DNA of 47,693 nt, taken from contig JAJZPO010000010.1 in assembly GCA_021811155.1 (NCBI GenBank), forward strand, positions 3,054 through 50,746, given 5' to 3'. Origin of the DNA: Bacillota bacterium (lineage in GTDB: Bacteria; Bacillota; Desulfitobacteriia; Desulfitobacteriales; JAJXUE01). The notes under the pieces are model-generated. The model had not been told where the DNA came from. It worked only from the letters and a program-made list of their open reading frames with translations, and ran no database searches. A program made the position numbers and the translations under genes. Of the stretch, positions 8,680 through 12,536 are shown in pieces; the first letter of the stretch is position 1, and the number at the start of each line of letters is the position of its first letter.

Positions 8680-8707
8680 AAAAAAAAGGAGCCCAAGCGG
8701 CTCCTTC
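8680..8707 (-). terminator. intrinsic terminator of the NROR-cooS-cooF operon
   Basis: Minus strand: AAGGAGCCGCTTGGGCTCC hairpin followed by seven T, about 30 nt past the ferredoxin stop. Confidence 0.85.
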
Positions 8708-8736: not shown

Positions 8737-9237
8737 TTAGACTTGGAATTTTCTGAATCCCCTAACGTAGCTCGCTCTACGCTCTTTGGCCCAATTGTCC
8801 CCGGCTACGAAGGTCAGGGCGCCCGTAGGACACGCCTGGACACAGGCCGGGACGGTGGCAGAACCCACACACTCCCTGTTGCACTTAACCGCTTGTCTTG
8901 ACCGGTAGTCCGGCCGCACTACCCCATAAGGGCAGACCATGACACACATCCAGCAGCCCACACACGTTCCCGCCGCGTTTGATACCAGTCCCGGCCCCTC
9001 AGAGCGCATGGCGCCTGTGCTGCAAGCATCCACGCAGGGAGCGTCTTGGCAGTGGCGGCAGGTCAGAGGGAGTTTGTATGGAGGTGCAGGTTCCACAAAA
9101 ATCCTGGCAGAGGCGAAGGGAGTTTCCTCGATCGCCCCCCTCAGGGTCCTGCTGCCGGAATGAGCAACAGCACAGGCCAACTCACAGCTATGGCACCCGA
9201 GGCATAATTCATACTGGATGGCAATGTCGTAATCCAT
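8737..9237 (-). CDS. cooF: CooF-like polyferredoxin (four [4Fe-4S] clusters)
   Basis: 166 residues of the HycB/CooF/DmsB type. Cysteine groups: CLGCHSCELAC (12-22), then CRHCQDAPCVDAC, CVGCWMCVMVCPYG, and CNREC with a distal ACVQACPTGAL. These can bind four [4Fe-4S] clusters and make an electron wire. It is the last gene of a three-gene operon, 16 nt after the CooS-like gene, with a strong GGAGGGGGG ribosome site. In known systems CooF carries electrons from a CO dehydrogenase to a hydrogenase or a flavoprotein; here the flavoprotein partner is encoded at the head of the operon. Because the CooS partner lacks key active-site ligands, electrons may run the other way, into a reductase (inference). 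Confidence 0.85.
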   Translation of the reverse strand: MDYDIAIQYELCLGCHSCELACAVAHSGSRTLRGAIEETPFASARIFVEPAPPYKLPLTCRHCQDAPCVDACSTGAMRSEGPGLVSNAAGTCVGCWMCVMVCPYGVVRPDYRSRQAVKCNRECVGSATVPACVQACPTGALTFVAGDNWAKERRASYVRGFRKFQV

Positions 9238-9253: not shown

Positions 9254-11077
9254 TCAGCTTGCGTTCAGGCCAAGCCCTTTGCGGCGCTGGCCGATAGCAT
9301 CAGACAGTTTCTCCACCGCCTGATGCGGGTCAGACTCCGGCAGGAAATACCCACCGAACAGATCTTTGAACCCGCCTGTTAAAATGCCGGCTAGCAGGTT
9401 GCTGCCCATCACCGGGGGAGCGGCTCCCAAGTGTACAGGCAGCCCCAAGGCAAGGGCTGAAACAGCAAAGGTTATCGCCCTTTCACTGCTGTACTCAGGC
9501 AGTGAAACAACCATGGGCAGACGGTTAAGGTCTACTCCCAGCTTGTTTGCCAGGTCCACCGCGAGAGCAATAGCCCGGCAAGTATCCAGACACGCCCCGA
9601 GATGCAGCAGTAATGGCCAGGGCCCGCCTGTAGCGCTGGCTTCCCCCGCGGCGGCAAGGAAAGCTTTCAGCCCAGGACCGGCAAATTCGCGGGTTGCCTC
9701 AGGTGTAAGCATCCCATGCCTGGCAAAGGTTCCCGCTCCGCACCCGGCGGTTAGGAGAAGGATGTCGCGCTGGGCCAGTTCTTTGGCCATGAGCAGGAAA
9801 TCCAGGGGCAGCTTAATGTTATTGCAGCCGCTCAAAAGGGCTATGCCCCGAATGCGCCCCTTAACTATATTCTCCAACAAAAACTGCAAGGGATCAGCAG
9901 GGTTTAACTCAGCCAAAGCCGTCAGGATGCTTGAGTTAGAAAAACCGGTCACCGCTCTTGGCGCTTCAGCAGAGGTTGGAGCAGGATTGTCCTGACGGGC
10001 CTTGAATGCCTCCAAAGCTTCCCGCACTATTTTTCTGCCGTTTTCCCCTGCCTCGCTTTCCTTCGGATCGAGCTGATAAACACCTGGTACGCCGGCCCTG
10101 CCAACTGTAAAAATCTTGGTTCCTGTCCGCGCTGCCGCACCTGGCAAGGAAGGATAGCTGCACTGACCGGTAACCACCAGGGCATCCCAGACTCCGGTGA
10201 AAAGGGCTAATTCTTGCAGTATTGCCTGTCCCCAGGCAAACTCCATCACGTTAAACCCTGTTGCGCCGAAAACCTTGGCTTCCTCAGCCAACTCCCCGGC
10301 AGCAATAGCCAGGGATTGCTTCAGAGCCGGGTCAAAACCCTGCACGCCAATATTGACCTCATTGCCGGCAATGGGGGCAATGCGTGCGGCAGCCGGCTGG
10401 GGTGTGCCGAAAACCACATCGTTTAGGTCTGATGCCAGGCGGCTGGCCGCAAAACCGGCAACAGCACACTTGACCCCGCTCAGCAACAGGTCTAATGGGT
10501 CTGAGTCAGCGCCCATGGCGCTGCGCTGCAAGCTGTCCGCTATAGCGCTGTCAATCCCGCGCGGCAGGACGCCGGCTTTGCCCAGGACCTCGATTCGTCC
10601 CTGGGTCAGGGCAGTTTCTATCCATGCCAGCGGTTCATCCCGGTAACCAAACTCGGCCCGGGCCGCATCAGCCAACTGCTGCAGCCTGGCCGCAGGTCCT
10701 GCGGCGGGCGCCAAACCCAACCGTTCGATAATGGGCTTGAGCCCTCCGATGTCCTTTATTCCCTCACCCGTTGCACACAGCAGGCGCAACAGTCCTTTGG
10801 CGTGAGCCGAAAGCGCCGCTGTGCCGGCAGCCACAGCCCGGACAAAGTTCACCGCCGCTATGGTATCCCGTCCTGCTCCGCACACCCCAGACCGGGGCCC
10901 GTTGCCGAAAGGGTCAATGCGGCAAGGACCCTGGCTGCAGTTATGGCAGCAGATGCCGAGTTCACCAAAACCGCATTGAGGCAGCTGGGCCTGGCAGCGG
11001 TCCCAAACCGTTTCTATCCCCAAATTGCAGGCCCTTTCCCACAAAGCCTGAATGCCGGGATCGCTGGGAATTTTCAT
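9254..11077 (-). CDS. CooS-like protein with altered C-cluster (probable non-CO-oxidising variant)
   Basis: 607 residues of the anaerobic Ni-CO dehydrogenase family, near normal length. The N-terminal cluster Cys set is present: C35, C43, C44, C47, C52, C66 in QCGFGELGICCHNCSQGPC and GVCGAG. Four C-cluster Cys are present: C306 (GQCSYPSL), C418 (SGCNN), C446 (AGCGAG), C496 (GACLD). Against the usual family pattern, the Ni/Fe-site His of GHEP is Phe248 (GFDP), the ICCTGNE Cys is replaced at A281/W282 (FAWGQA), and the HSDHG proton-relay stretch reads LSAHAKG. So it should not build a normal [Ni-4Fe-4S] site. Carboxydothermus CODH-V is a described variant with an unusual Fe-S-O cluster and may be the nearest precedent. 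Operon: oxidoreductase, this gene, ferredoxin. Confidence 0.88.
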   Translation of the reverse strand: MKIPSDPGIQALWERACNLGIETVWDRCQAQLPQCGFGELGICCHNCSQGPCRIDPFGNGPRSGVCGAGRDTIAAVNFVRAVAAGTAALSAHAKGLLRLLCATGEGIKDIGGLKPIIERLGLAPAAGPAARLQQLADAARAEFGYRDEPLAWIETALTQGRIEVLGKAGVLPRGIDSAIADSLQRSAMGADSDPLDLLLSGVKCAVAGFAASRLASDLNDVVFGTPQPAAARIAPIAGNEVNIGVQGFDPALKQSLAIAAGELAEEAKVFGATGFNVMEFAWGQAILQELALFTGVWDALVVTGQCSYPSLPGAAARTGTKIFTVGRAGVPGVYQLDPKESEAGENGRKIVREALEAFKARQDNPAPTSAEAPRAVTGFSNSSILTALAELNPADPLQFLLENIVKGRIRGIALLSGCNNIKLPLDFLLMAKELAQRDILLLTAGCGAGTFARHGMLTPEATREFAGPGLKAFLAAAGEASATGGPWPLLLHLGACLDTCRAIALAVDLANKLGVDLNRLPMVVSLPEYSSERAITFAVSALALGLPVHLGAAPPVMGSNLLAGILTGGFKDLFGGYFLPESDPHQAVEKLSDAIGQRRKGLGLNAS

Positions 11078-11094: not shown

Positions 11095-12345
11095 CTATTT
11101 AGCACAAAACTGTTCCGGTTCGCCAGAGAGCATCAGGCTGAAAACCTCTCCCCTAAGCAGGGCGTTTTTTTCCCTGCGGCTTAGCTCCCGGCCCTTTCTG
11201 ATCAGCCAGTTATAAACTCCCGCCCCGGCAATATCCCCCATCAGAACAGCCCCCAGCAGCCTGTCGCCCCGGAAAACCAGGCGGCGGTATGCCCTGCCCG
11301 CATCCCAAACCTGCACCTCGCCCGGGTAGGTGTTCAAACCCGCGGCCACGAGGGGAACGCCGGCTATTGTTGCCGCATATTGCTTTGTAAAAGGCTCTCC
11401 GTAAGGGACTAAGTCTGATTCCTGCCATGAACCTTCCGGATGCCTTAGGCGCCAAAACATGCCTTGGGCCGCCCGCTTGCCCTGTTCGACGGCCAGGGAC
11501 CACGCTCCCGGGAGCACGGTTTCCCCGCTAAGGGCATCCCTGACCCAGGTACAGTCCCCGGCAGCAAAAACCCCCTTGCGGTCAGTTTCAAAGCAGGGGT
11601 TGACCTTAATACCTGTGCCGGCCCGCAGGGCCAGAGAAACATTGGCCCGTACTCCCTTGGCGGCTGTCACTATATCGGCAGGAAATTCGCGCCCATCTTC
11701 CAGCCCGACACTCTGCACCTTTTTGTTCCCCAGTATTTGAGCAGGGTTCTGACCGAAAACCATTGCTATCTTGCGGTTTGACAGCGCCTTGGCAACCCGC
11801 TCCGCTCCCTGCTCATCCAATTGGCCGGCAAGGAGCCTGGAAGCTTTGACGACCAGTGTAACTTGCGGAATTCCCCTGTCCCTTAAAGCTTCAGCCAGGG
11901 CCACACCGACGGGGCCCCCTCCGAATACCACTGCCTTCCCCGCTTCCCACCTGGCTATGTGCAGCGCGTCCCTGTACTGGTTCAGCCGGAAGACGCCGCG
12001 CAAATCCTCGCCCGCGATTTCCAGTTTCCTCGGCCGGGCGCCTGTAGCCAGCAAAAGGACTTGAAACCGGAGCCTGCCGCCGTCCTCCAGCAAGACCTGA
12101 GGCTTGTCGGGCCAAAGAAATAGCGCCCTCTTGCCGGCAATCAGTTCTATGTCATTGCGGGTAAAAAAATCCGGCGGACGGAAATCATCTATTAAACGCC
12201 CCGCAACCACACCCGGCAGTTGGCAGCGAGCATACAACAATCTCTCCCCATCCACCACGGTAATCTCCAACCTGTCAGAAAGCTTGCGCAGGGTTTCAGC
12301 GGCGCTGAGGCCGGCAGGTCCCGCGCCGATGATTAAACACTTCAT
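11095..12345 (-). CDS. FAD/NAD(P)-dependent oxidoreductase, NADH:rubredoxin reductase-like
   Basis: 416 residues of the pyridine-nucleotide disulfide oxidoreductase fold. FAD site at the N-terminus: CLIIGAGPAGLSAAE (3-17). A second nucleotide site, VVFGGGPVGVALAEAL (about 139-154), fits NAD(P)H. FAD-closing motif GVFAAGDC. The redox disulfide of classical reductases is not evident, as in the NROR/ferredoxin-reductase group. It heads the operon with the CooS-like and CooF-like genes (17-nt gap). The same trio occurs around some clostridial CODHs, where the flavoprotein passes electrons between NAD(P)H and CooF. The promoter must lie between 12346 and 12467; I could not assign it with confidence. 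Confidence 0.85.
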   Translation of the reverse strand: MKCLIIGAGPAGLSAAETLRKLSDRLEITVVDGERLLYARCQLPGVVAGRLIDDFRPPDFFTRNDIELIAGKRALFLWPDKPQVLLEDGGRLRFQVLLLATGARPRKLEIAGEDLRGVFRLNQYRDALHIARWEAGKAVVFGGGPVGVALAEALRDRGIPQVTLVVKASRLLAGQLDEQGAERVAKALSNRKIAMVFGQNPAQILGNKKVQSVGLEDGREFPADIVTAAKGVRANVSLALRAGTGIKVNPCFETDRKGVFAAGDCTWVRDALSGETVLPGAWSLAVEQGKRAAQGMFWRLRHPEGSWQESDLVPYGEPFTKQYAATIAGVPLVAAGLNTYPGEVQVWDAGRAYRRLVFRGDRLLGAVLMGDIAGAGVYNWLIRKGRELSRREKNALLRGEVFSLMLSGEPEQFCAK

Positions 12346-12467
12346 CCAGTCCTACCCCCTGGCGCAATACGCTTCATACTTGTCCACGCTAAAAGGGCCG
12401 CAGGCATTGTGCAGTTTTCCCTTAAAATTTATGCGCAGCCGCAAACTTTAGAAGGGGTAAAGGAGCA

Positions 12468-12521
12468 CAAACAAAGGCGGCAGAACTCCACAGGCGCTAA
12501 AACCCGAGAAATTCTGCCGCC
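12468..12521 (-). terminator. intrinsic terminator after the 12537 MFS gene
   Basis: Stem GGCGGCAGAA (12476-12485) and TTCTGCCGCC (12512-12521). On the minus strand it is followed by TTTGTTTGT. It separates the MFS gene from the promoter region of the CooS operon. Confidence 0.65.
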
Positions 12522-12536
12522 CTTATCAAAAGCCTG

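Follow-up and report, generated by a model that had tools for sequence, protein, structure and literature searches.

A clade F carbon monoxide dehydrogenase homologue that lacks part of the C-cluster site is retained in an FNOR-CooS-CooF operon

What becomes of a carbon monoxide dehydrogenase (CODH) when active-site residues are missing and the flavoprotein and ferredoxin encoded beside it are still in place? A gene in the window, the 47,693-nucleotide stretch of a Bacillota genome analyzed here, raises this question. A preliminary description proposed that its product no longer oxidizes CO and may act as a reductase of the hybrid-cluster protein (HCP) kind. The gene is the minus-strand open reading frame from 11077 to 9254 (no strand had been given) and encodes a CooS-like protein of 607 residues. 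The protein matches PF03063 (Pfam, Prismane/CO dehydrogenase) at 355 bits and the NCBIfam model TIGR01702 at 487 bits, barely above the cut-off of 478, whereas the HCP model TIGR01703 gives 59 bits against a cut-off of 361, which places it outside the HCP family. In a phmmer search of the PDB, CODH-II is homologous across the entire length of the protein (E about 1e-150, 507 bits), and entry 7b7q (629 aa), presumably the CooS-V of the organism from which CODH-II comes, reaches only 199 bits. Identity is 43% to CODH-II, 45-49% to the closest CODHs with complete sites and up to 50% to the nearest relative. Full-length homology, together with the position in the tree described below, makes the protein a clade F Ni-CODH by descent.

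Residues were mapped with the sequence and numbering of Carboxydothermus hydrogenoformans CODH-II as the reference (Table 1). Four of the six C-cluster ligands are kept, and His261 and Cys295 are lost in both species that carry the gene. The preliminary description had the ligand His replaced by Phe248, and the mapping agrees (H261>F248), although the motif it named, GHEP, is GHNP in the consensus of the relatives. It also had the Cys of ICCTGNE replaced at A281/W282. The substitutions stand (C294>A281, C295>W282), but an in-frame deletion of about 14 residues, which takes out the Cys294/295 (CCTGNE) loop, had been missed. In the alignment, ICCTGNEVLMRHGIPxxTHSxSQE of the relatives becomes FAWGQAILQE, and the stretch that replaces the loop holds no His or Cys in either species. 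Where the description read HSDHG as changed to LSAHAKG, the ancestral motif here is HSGHAKH, and two of its His are lost, the acid-base His93 (>L89) and His99 (>G95). The acid-base pair His93 and Lys563 (Lys563>R533) is lost in both species, and D219>G208 and I567>F537 are also found. All six Cys of the B and D clusters are present in both species, as had been said of the N-terminal Cys; Cys 39, 47, 48, 51, 56 and 70 of CODH-II are C35, C43, C44, C47, C52 and C66. The combination of losses occurs in none of about 80 other aligned CODHs. The segment around Cys526 differs between the two species (GACLDTC and GGCPDIC). C500, four residues past ligand C496, might serve as an extra ligand.

Table 1. 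Positions in the window of the three operon genes, the mapped residues and the terminator
Feature	Position	Strand	Basis
FAD/NAD(P) oxidoreductase (FNOR), first operon gene	11095..12345	minus	PF07992 164 bits; both nucleotide-binding motifs kept, alignment with complete-operon FNORs
CooS-like protein, 607 aa, full length	9254..11077	minus	translation; PF03063 355 bits; TIGR01702 487 bits; CODH-II mapping
D-/B-cluster Cys region (C35, C43, C44, C47, C52, C66), intact	10880..10975	minus	about 96-97% identical between two species
F248 codon, site of C-cluster ligand His261	10334..10336	minus	CODH-II mapping; Phe also in 75% ortholog
A281/W282 codons, site of deleted Cys294/Cys295 loop	10232..10237	minus	mapping; translation without Cys between C204 and C306
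C306 codon, ligand Cys333, kept	10160..10162	minus	CODH-II mapping
C418 codon, ligand Cys446, kept	9824..9826	minus	CODH-II mapping
C446 codon, ligand Cys476, kept	9740..9742	minus	CODH-II mapping
C496 codon, ligand Cys526 (Ni ligand in CODH), kept	9590..9592	minus	CODH-II mapping
C500 codon, new Cys common to both deviant proteins	9578..9580	minus	Ser/Thr in clade E/F relatives
CooF-like polyferredoxin, 166 aa, last operon gene	8737..9237	minus	PF13247 and other Fer4 models; relatives' conserved Cys kept
Intrinsic terminator after CooF, AAGGAGCCGCTTGGGCTCCTT then T run	8680..8706 (stem 8686-8706)	minus	stem prediction and minus-strand sequence

In CODH-II structures, the exo-iron (Fe1) is bound by His261 and Cys295, the 3Fe-4S part by Cys333, Cys446 and Cys476, and nickel by Cys526. 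The loss is not scattered, because the lost ligands are the exo-iron pair and the kept Cys, reported earlier as C306, C418, C446 and C496, are the cubane half. What has been dismantled is the exo-iron half with its proton network; the cubane half still has all four of its Cys. With His261, Cys295, the acid-base His and Lys, and D219 gone in two species, the proposal that CO oxidation has been lost is well supported, and almost certainly correct. AlphaFold2, run on two sequences only, gave a pLDDT of 31 and a pTM of 0.24, and no structural argument made here rests on the model.

A second genome of the genus (G001, contig JAJYNB010000030.1) carries an ortholog that is 75% identical and has every loss, within the same FNOR-CooS-CooF operon and between the same flanking neighbors. 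Neither copy contains a stop or a frameshift. Because the second species has all of the losses at this level of identity and in the same operon, a sequencing or assembly error is ruled out and the gene is not a fresh pseudogene. These two draft or metagenome-derived genomes provide one pairwise comparison. By the Nei-Gojobori method, the CooS-like gene has a dN/dS of 0.22, with FNOR at 0.23 and CooF at 0.14; in the CODH/ACS operon that both genomes carry, the CODH, CooC and ACS genes lie lower, at 0.045-0.05 (CODH 0.047). The CooS-like gene is under purifying selection, weaker than in a working CODH. Measured against CooF and FNOR, CooS now evolves at 2-3 times the rate seen in complete operons (a ratio taken from identities); CooF is 83% identical between the two species.

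The distribution of change within the protein is informative about what selection maintains. Among 42 complete clade F CODHs, 133 alignment columns are invariant. The two deviant proteins both keep 88 of these, both change 36, and differ in the remaining 9, where one of them is changed. In a leave-one-out count, no complete clade F member departs at more than 4 invariant columns, and the pattern of loss in the deviant pair is well beyond chance. The B/D segment (31-75) keeps 17 of 17 invariant columns, and the segment of H261 and C295 (241-340) keeps 13 of 27. Since most invariant columns are kept, the four retained C-site Cys are weak evidence when taken alone. We also compared the deviant pair with 142 control pairs, drawn from complete CODHs and close to it in total identity. 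The shells of the B and D clusters are 97% identical in the deviant pair against a control mean of 83%, at the top of the range, while the shells of the four C-site Cys are 78% identical against 90%, at the bottom of it. The acid-base segment (76-110), at 60% against a mean of 80%, falls below every control. No control pair (0 of 142) has as large a difference between B/D and C site in this direction. This is a strong hint, from non-independent controls and a single deviant pair, that the strictest constraint has shifted to the B/D region, away from the cluster site.

The CooS-like gene likely descends from a clade F CODH in a complete FNOR-CooS-CooF operon. In an IQ-TREE tree of 71 CODHs, which includes those of genome G128, presumably C. 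hydrogenoformans as recognized by its CODH-II sequence, the deviant pair lies inside clade F beside the CODHs of G356, G254 and G224 (88/84) and of G073 and G074 (99/98), and the CODH-II group is sister to the pair and these relatives (99/94). Grouping with CooS-V is rejected (p-AU 1.8e-48), though the CooS-V group is equally long-branched; the stem of the deviant pair measures 1.15 changes per site. The closest relatives have complete C-clusters and the gene order FNOR-CooS-CooF, so a complete operon of this order is the likely ancestor.

Further genomes (at most 689, all from one phylum) were searched for a third deviant. None was found in the same class, in the classes of G254, G356 and G224, or in 398 genomes from across the phylum, and the motifs read in the top loci were complete. 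A contig scan whose patterns fell at the N-terminus yielded nothing beyond the known ortholog and one remote, partial CODH. In the sister-genus genome G002, the gene present is complete and CODH-IV-like, and it is not an ortholog of the CooS-like gene. The loop-deletion form in clade F is known so far from one genus.

The rest of the operon appears sound. The preliminary description noted that a CooF ferredoxin and a flavoprotein accompany the gene, and both are intact with their cofactor motifs. The order FNOR-CooS-CooF is kept in both species and in the complete relatives, co-transcription is predicted, and purine-rich ribosome-binding sites precede all three genes. A Cys>Ser change in CooF was considered as a lost ligand and rejected, as Ser is normal at this position in the relatives. 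The CooF of the second species (L034 10363-10860) has an extra Cys (CMGC) that is absent from the window CooF (8737-9237) and from other relatives. The region upstream of FNOR (12346-12536) is conserved in both species. Past the MFS gene it has a palindrome that resembles a terminator, GGCGGCAGAA ... TTCTGCCGCC, and it also includes a conserved block rich in A+T, GCGCATAAATTTT. A search for regulator sites ahead of the operon gave nothing convincing, and the strongest promoter-like match there lies partly within the end of the MFS gene.

The source genome (G000) encodes several related proteins. A second deviant CODH (C28:23880-25700; L004, L039) is of the CooS-V type, its Cys295 being replaced by Glu (GSIETGQELL), and has an unrelated neighborhood. 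Contig C20 (L038 7947-11662) carries a clade C type CODH in the order CooS-CooF-FNOR, which gives the genome two FNOR modules. An operon of CooC, CODH and an ACS-like 724-aa protein, on C60 (L037) and on C406 of G001 (L087), is 94-96% identical between the species and suggests an acetogen-like Wood-Ljungdahl metabolism. A true HCP (C106:3456-4736) matches TIGR01703 at 573 bits, in two pieces. Neither dsrA, for sulfate reduction, nor NrfA scores over the cut-off in the source genome, and so neither offers a clue to a substrate. With an HCP, a CooS-V type protein, a clade C CODH with CooF and FNOR, and a CODH/ACS operon with CooC at hand, the organism probably does not depend on the CooS-like protein for CO metabolism or for HCP functions.

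We tentatively favor the explanation that the CooS-like protein is a former CODH that now transfers electrons, as the Fe-S subunit of a complex with FNOR and CooF that is linked to NAD(P)H. Loss of the exo-iron His/Cys pair and of the acid-base residues would have ended CO/CO2 interconversion, and the protein would have been retained as a dimeric Fe-S subunit with which FNOR, by way of CooF and the D and B clusters, may exchange electrons. C306, C418, C446 and C496 probably hold a simple cubane, either [4Fe-4S] or possibly [NiFe3S4], unless the old site is empty; a cubane there could be the end point or a store of the electron chain. Electrons would pass through FNOR, CooF and the B/D clusters, with NAD(P)H at one end and a partner of low potential at the other. 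Such a subunit explains the data better than a tuned new enzyme does, because the parts for docking and wiring are the most constrained and the former reaction site drifts. The stricter constraint on the B/D region accords with a scaffold, and would be compatible also with catalysis at the old site. The further FNOR and CooF genes on C20 speak somewhat against the need for an extra complex.

There are several other possible explanations. First, the protein could reduce hydroxylamine, NO or a similar small molecule, with NADH electrons passing by way of FNOR and CooF to a cluster of the Fe-S or Fe-S-O kind in the former C site. The electron-supplying FNOR and CooF are intact. CooS-V, in which Cys295 is Glu, contains an Fe/S/O cluster; it lacks CO chemistry and turns over hydroxylamine slowly (kcat 0.13 per s; PMC9311411). 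The His-ligand variant H265V of the Rhodospirillum rubrum enzyme, as quoted in that paper, raises kcat/KM for hydroxylamine from 450 to 1600 per M per s. However, the protein lacks the His and both Glu of the hybrid cluster; it has F248, the deleted loop and S531 in their place, S531 being where HCP has Glu434. Conservation of its C-site shells is below that of the control pairs, a true HCP and a CooS-V-type protein are already encoded in the genome, and NrfA is not found over the cut-off. We regard a reductase as doubtful. The hybrid-cluster type in particular, as put forward in the preliminary description, finds no support in the sequence, with the constraint on the cluster site below that of true CODHs.

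Second, the gene could be dying, a functionless CODH paralog that erodes slowly under weak selection along with its operon. This would fit a dN/dS of 0.22, higher than the 0.047 of the CODH in the CODH/ACS operon, the faster change of CooS relative to its partners, and the 36 invariant residues changed in both deviants. Yet the frame is open in both species with dN well below dS, the B/D segment has lost none of its 17 invariant residues, CooF has a dN/dS of 0.14, and the ribosome-binding sites and terminator are intact. A stem of 1.15 changes per site is also long for an unselected frame to have remained open. Slow decay is unlikely.

Third, deletion of the exo-iron site may have left a bare four-Cys cubane, [NiFe3S4] or [4Fe-4S], which is wired to the flavoprotein and CooF and carries out a new redox reaction. 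We consider this rather improbable. If it were true, the protein would be a counterpart, made by evolution, of the nickel-ferredoxin models of CODH.

Fourth, a [NiFe3S4] cubane without the exo-iron might still bind CO, and the protein would then sense CO or carry out slow redox chemistry that depends on CO. Cys526, which binds nickel in CODH, remains in place together with the three Cys for the 3Fe-4S part, and a [NiFe3S4] ferredoxin model, which has no exo-iron, binds CO and cyanide (PMC11040638). Against this, nickel insertion is an assumption, the CO-pocket residues I567, H93 and D219 are gone, and the surroundings of Cys526 are not the same in the two species; a CO binder would be a long shot. 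Finally, a working CODH with substitute ligands is the least credible option, since the score above the curated cut-off of TIGR01702 is opposed in both species by the deleted ligand loop, which nothing with His or Cys replaces, by the loss of the exo-iron His and the acid-base His, and by the change of Lys to Arg.

Among known systems, the closest are the monofunctional Ni-CODHs of clade F (group F-1, CODH-II type). The CooS-like protein resembles them in fold, in the type II spacing of the D-cluster, in the B cluster, in operon order and in tree position, and is unlike them in having no His261, Cys295 or loop, His93, D219 or Lys563. To our knowledge, it is the first relative of the clade F CODHs to be described without an active site. 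The survey by Inoue et al. (2019) reports that the active-site motifs of all clade E and F groups are complete (PMC6344411). It also lists two clade A groups, A-4 and A-6, with the C-cluster His and Cys1 replaced and the other four Cys kept (Table 2 of that paper), and A-4 also has Lys>Arg. By these entries, both groups share the residue pattern of the CooS-like protein, in A-4 down to the Arg. They are Cdh-type proteins of clade A, whereas the protein studied here is CooS-type, of clade F, with a loop deletion, and belongs to neither group. The common pattern would be convergent. By the survey's listing, proteins that have lost both His and Cys1 were known before from A-4 and A-6, and the clade F loop-deletion version is a separate case.

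CooS-V of C. hydrogenoformans (group D-1) is likewise a CODH scaffold without Cys295 and, by analogy, without CO chemistry. It differs in keeping the His, in having Glu at position 295 and in belonging to another clade, and the CooS-like protein is not of the CooS-V type (199 bits, against 507 for CODH-II). HCP belongs to the same superfamily (PF03063) and has four equivalent Cys. The counterparts of its ligands His193, Glu217 and Glu434 (M. marburgensis numbering) are absent; at the positions given in PMC10502027, the CooS-like protein has F248, the deleted loop and S531 (Asn in the ortholog).

Automatic annotation would mislabel the CooS-like protein as a CODH, since TIGR01702, the NCBI model for the CODH catalytic subunit, scores just over its cut-off and still applies that label. 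Recent surveys discard sequences without C-cluster ligands (PMC13240472, PMC11338639), so proteins such as this one are removed unseen, and their frequency does not appear from the surveys. The exo-iron and the cubane are parted here in a natural protein, which makes the cubane's own capability testable. The case also suggests that the FNOR-CooS-CooF complex may have a use that is independent of CO.
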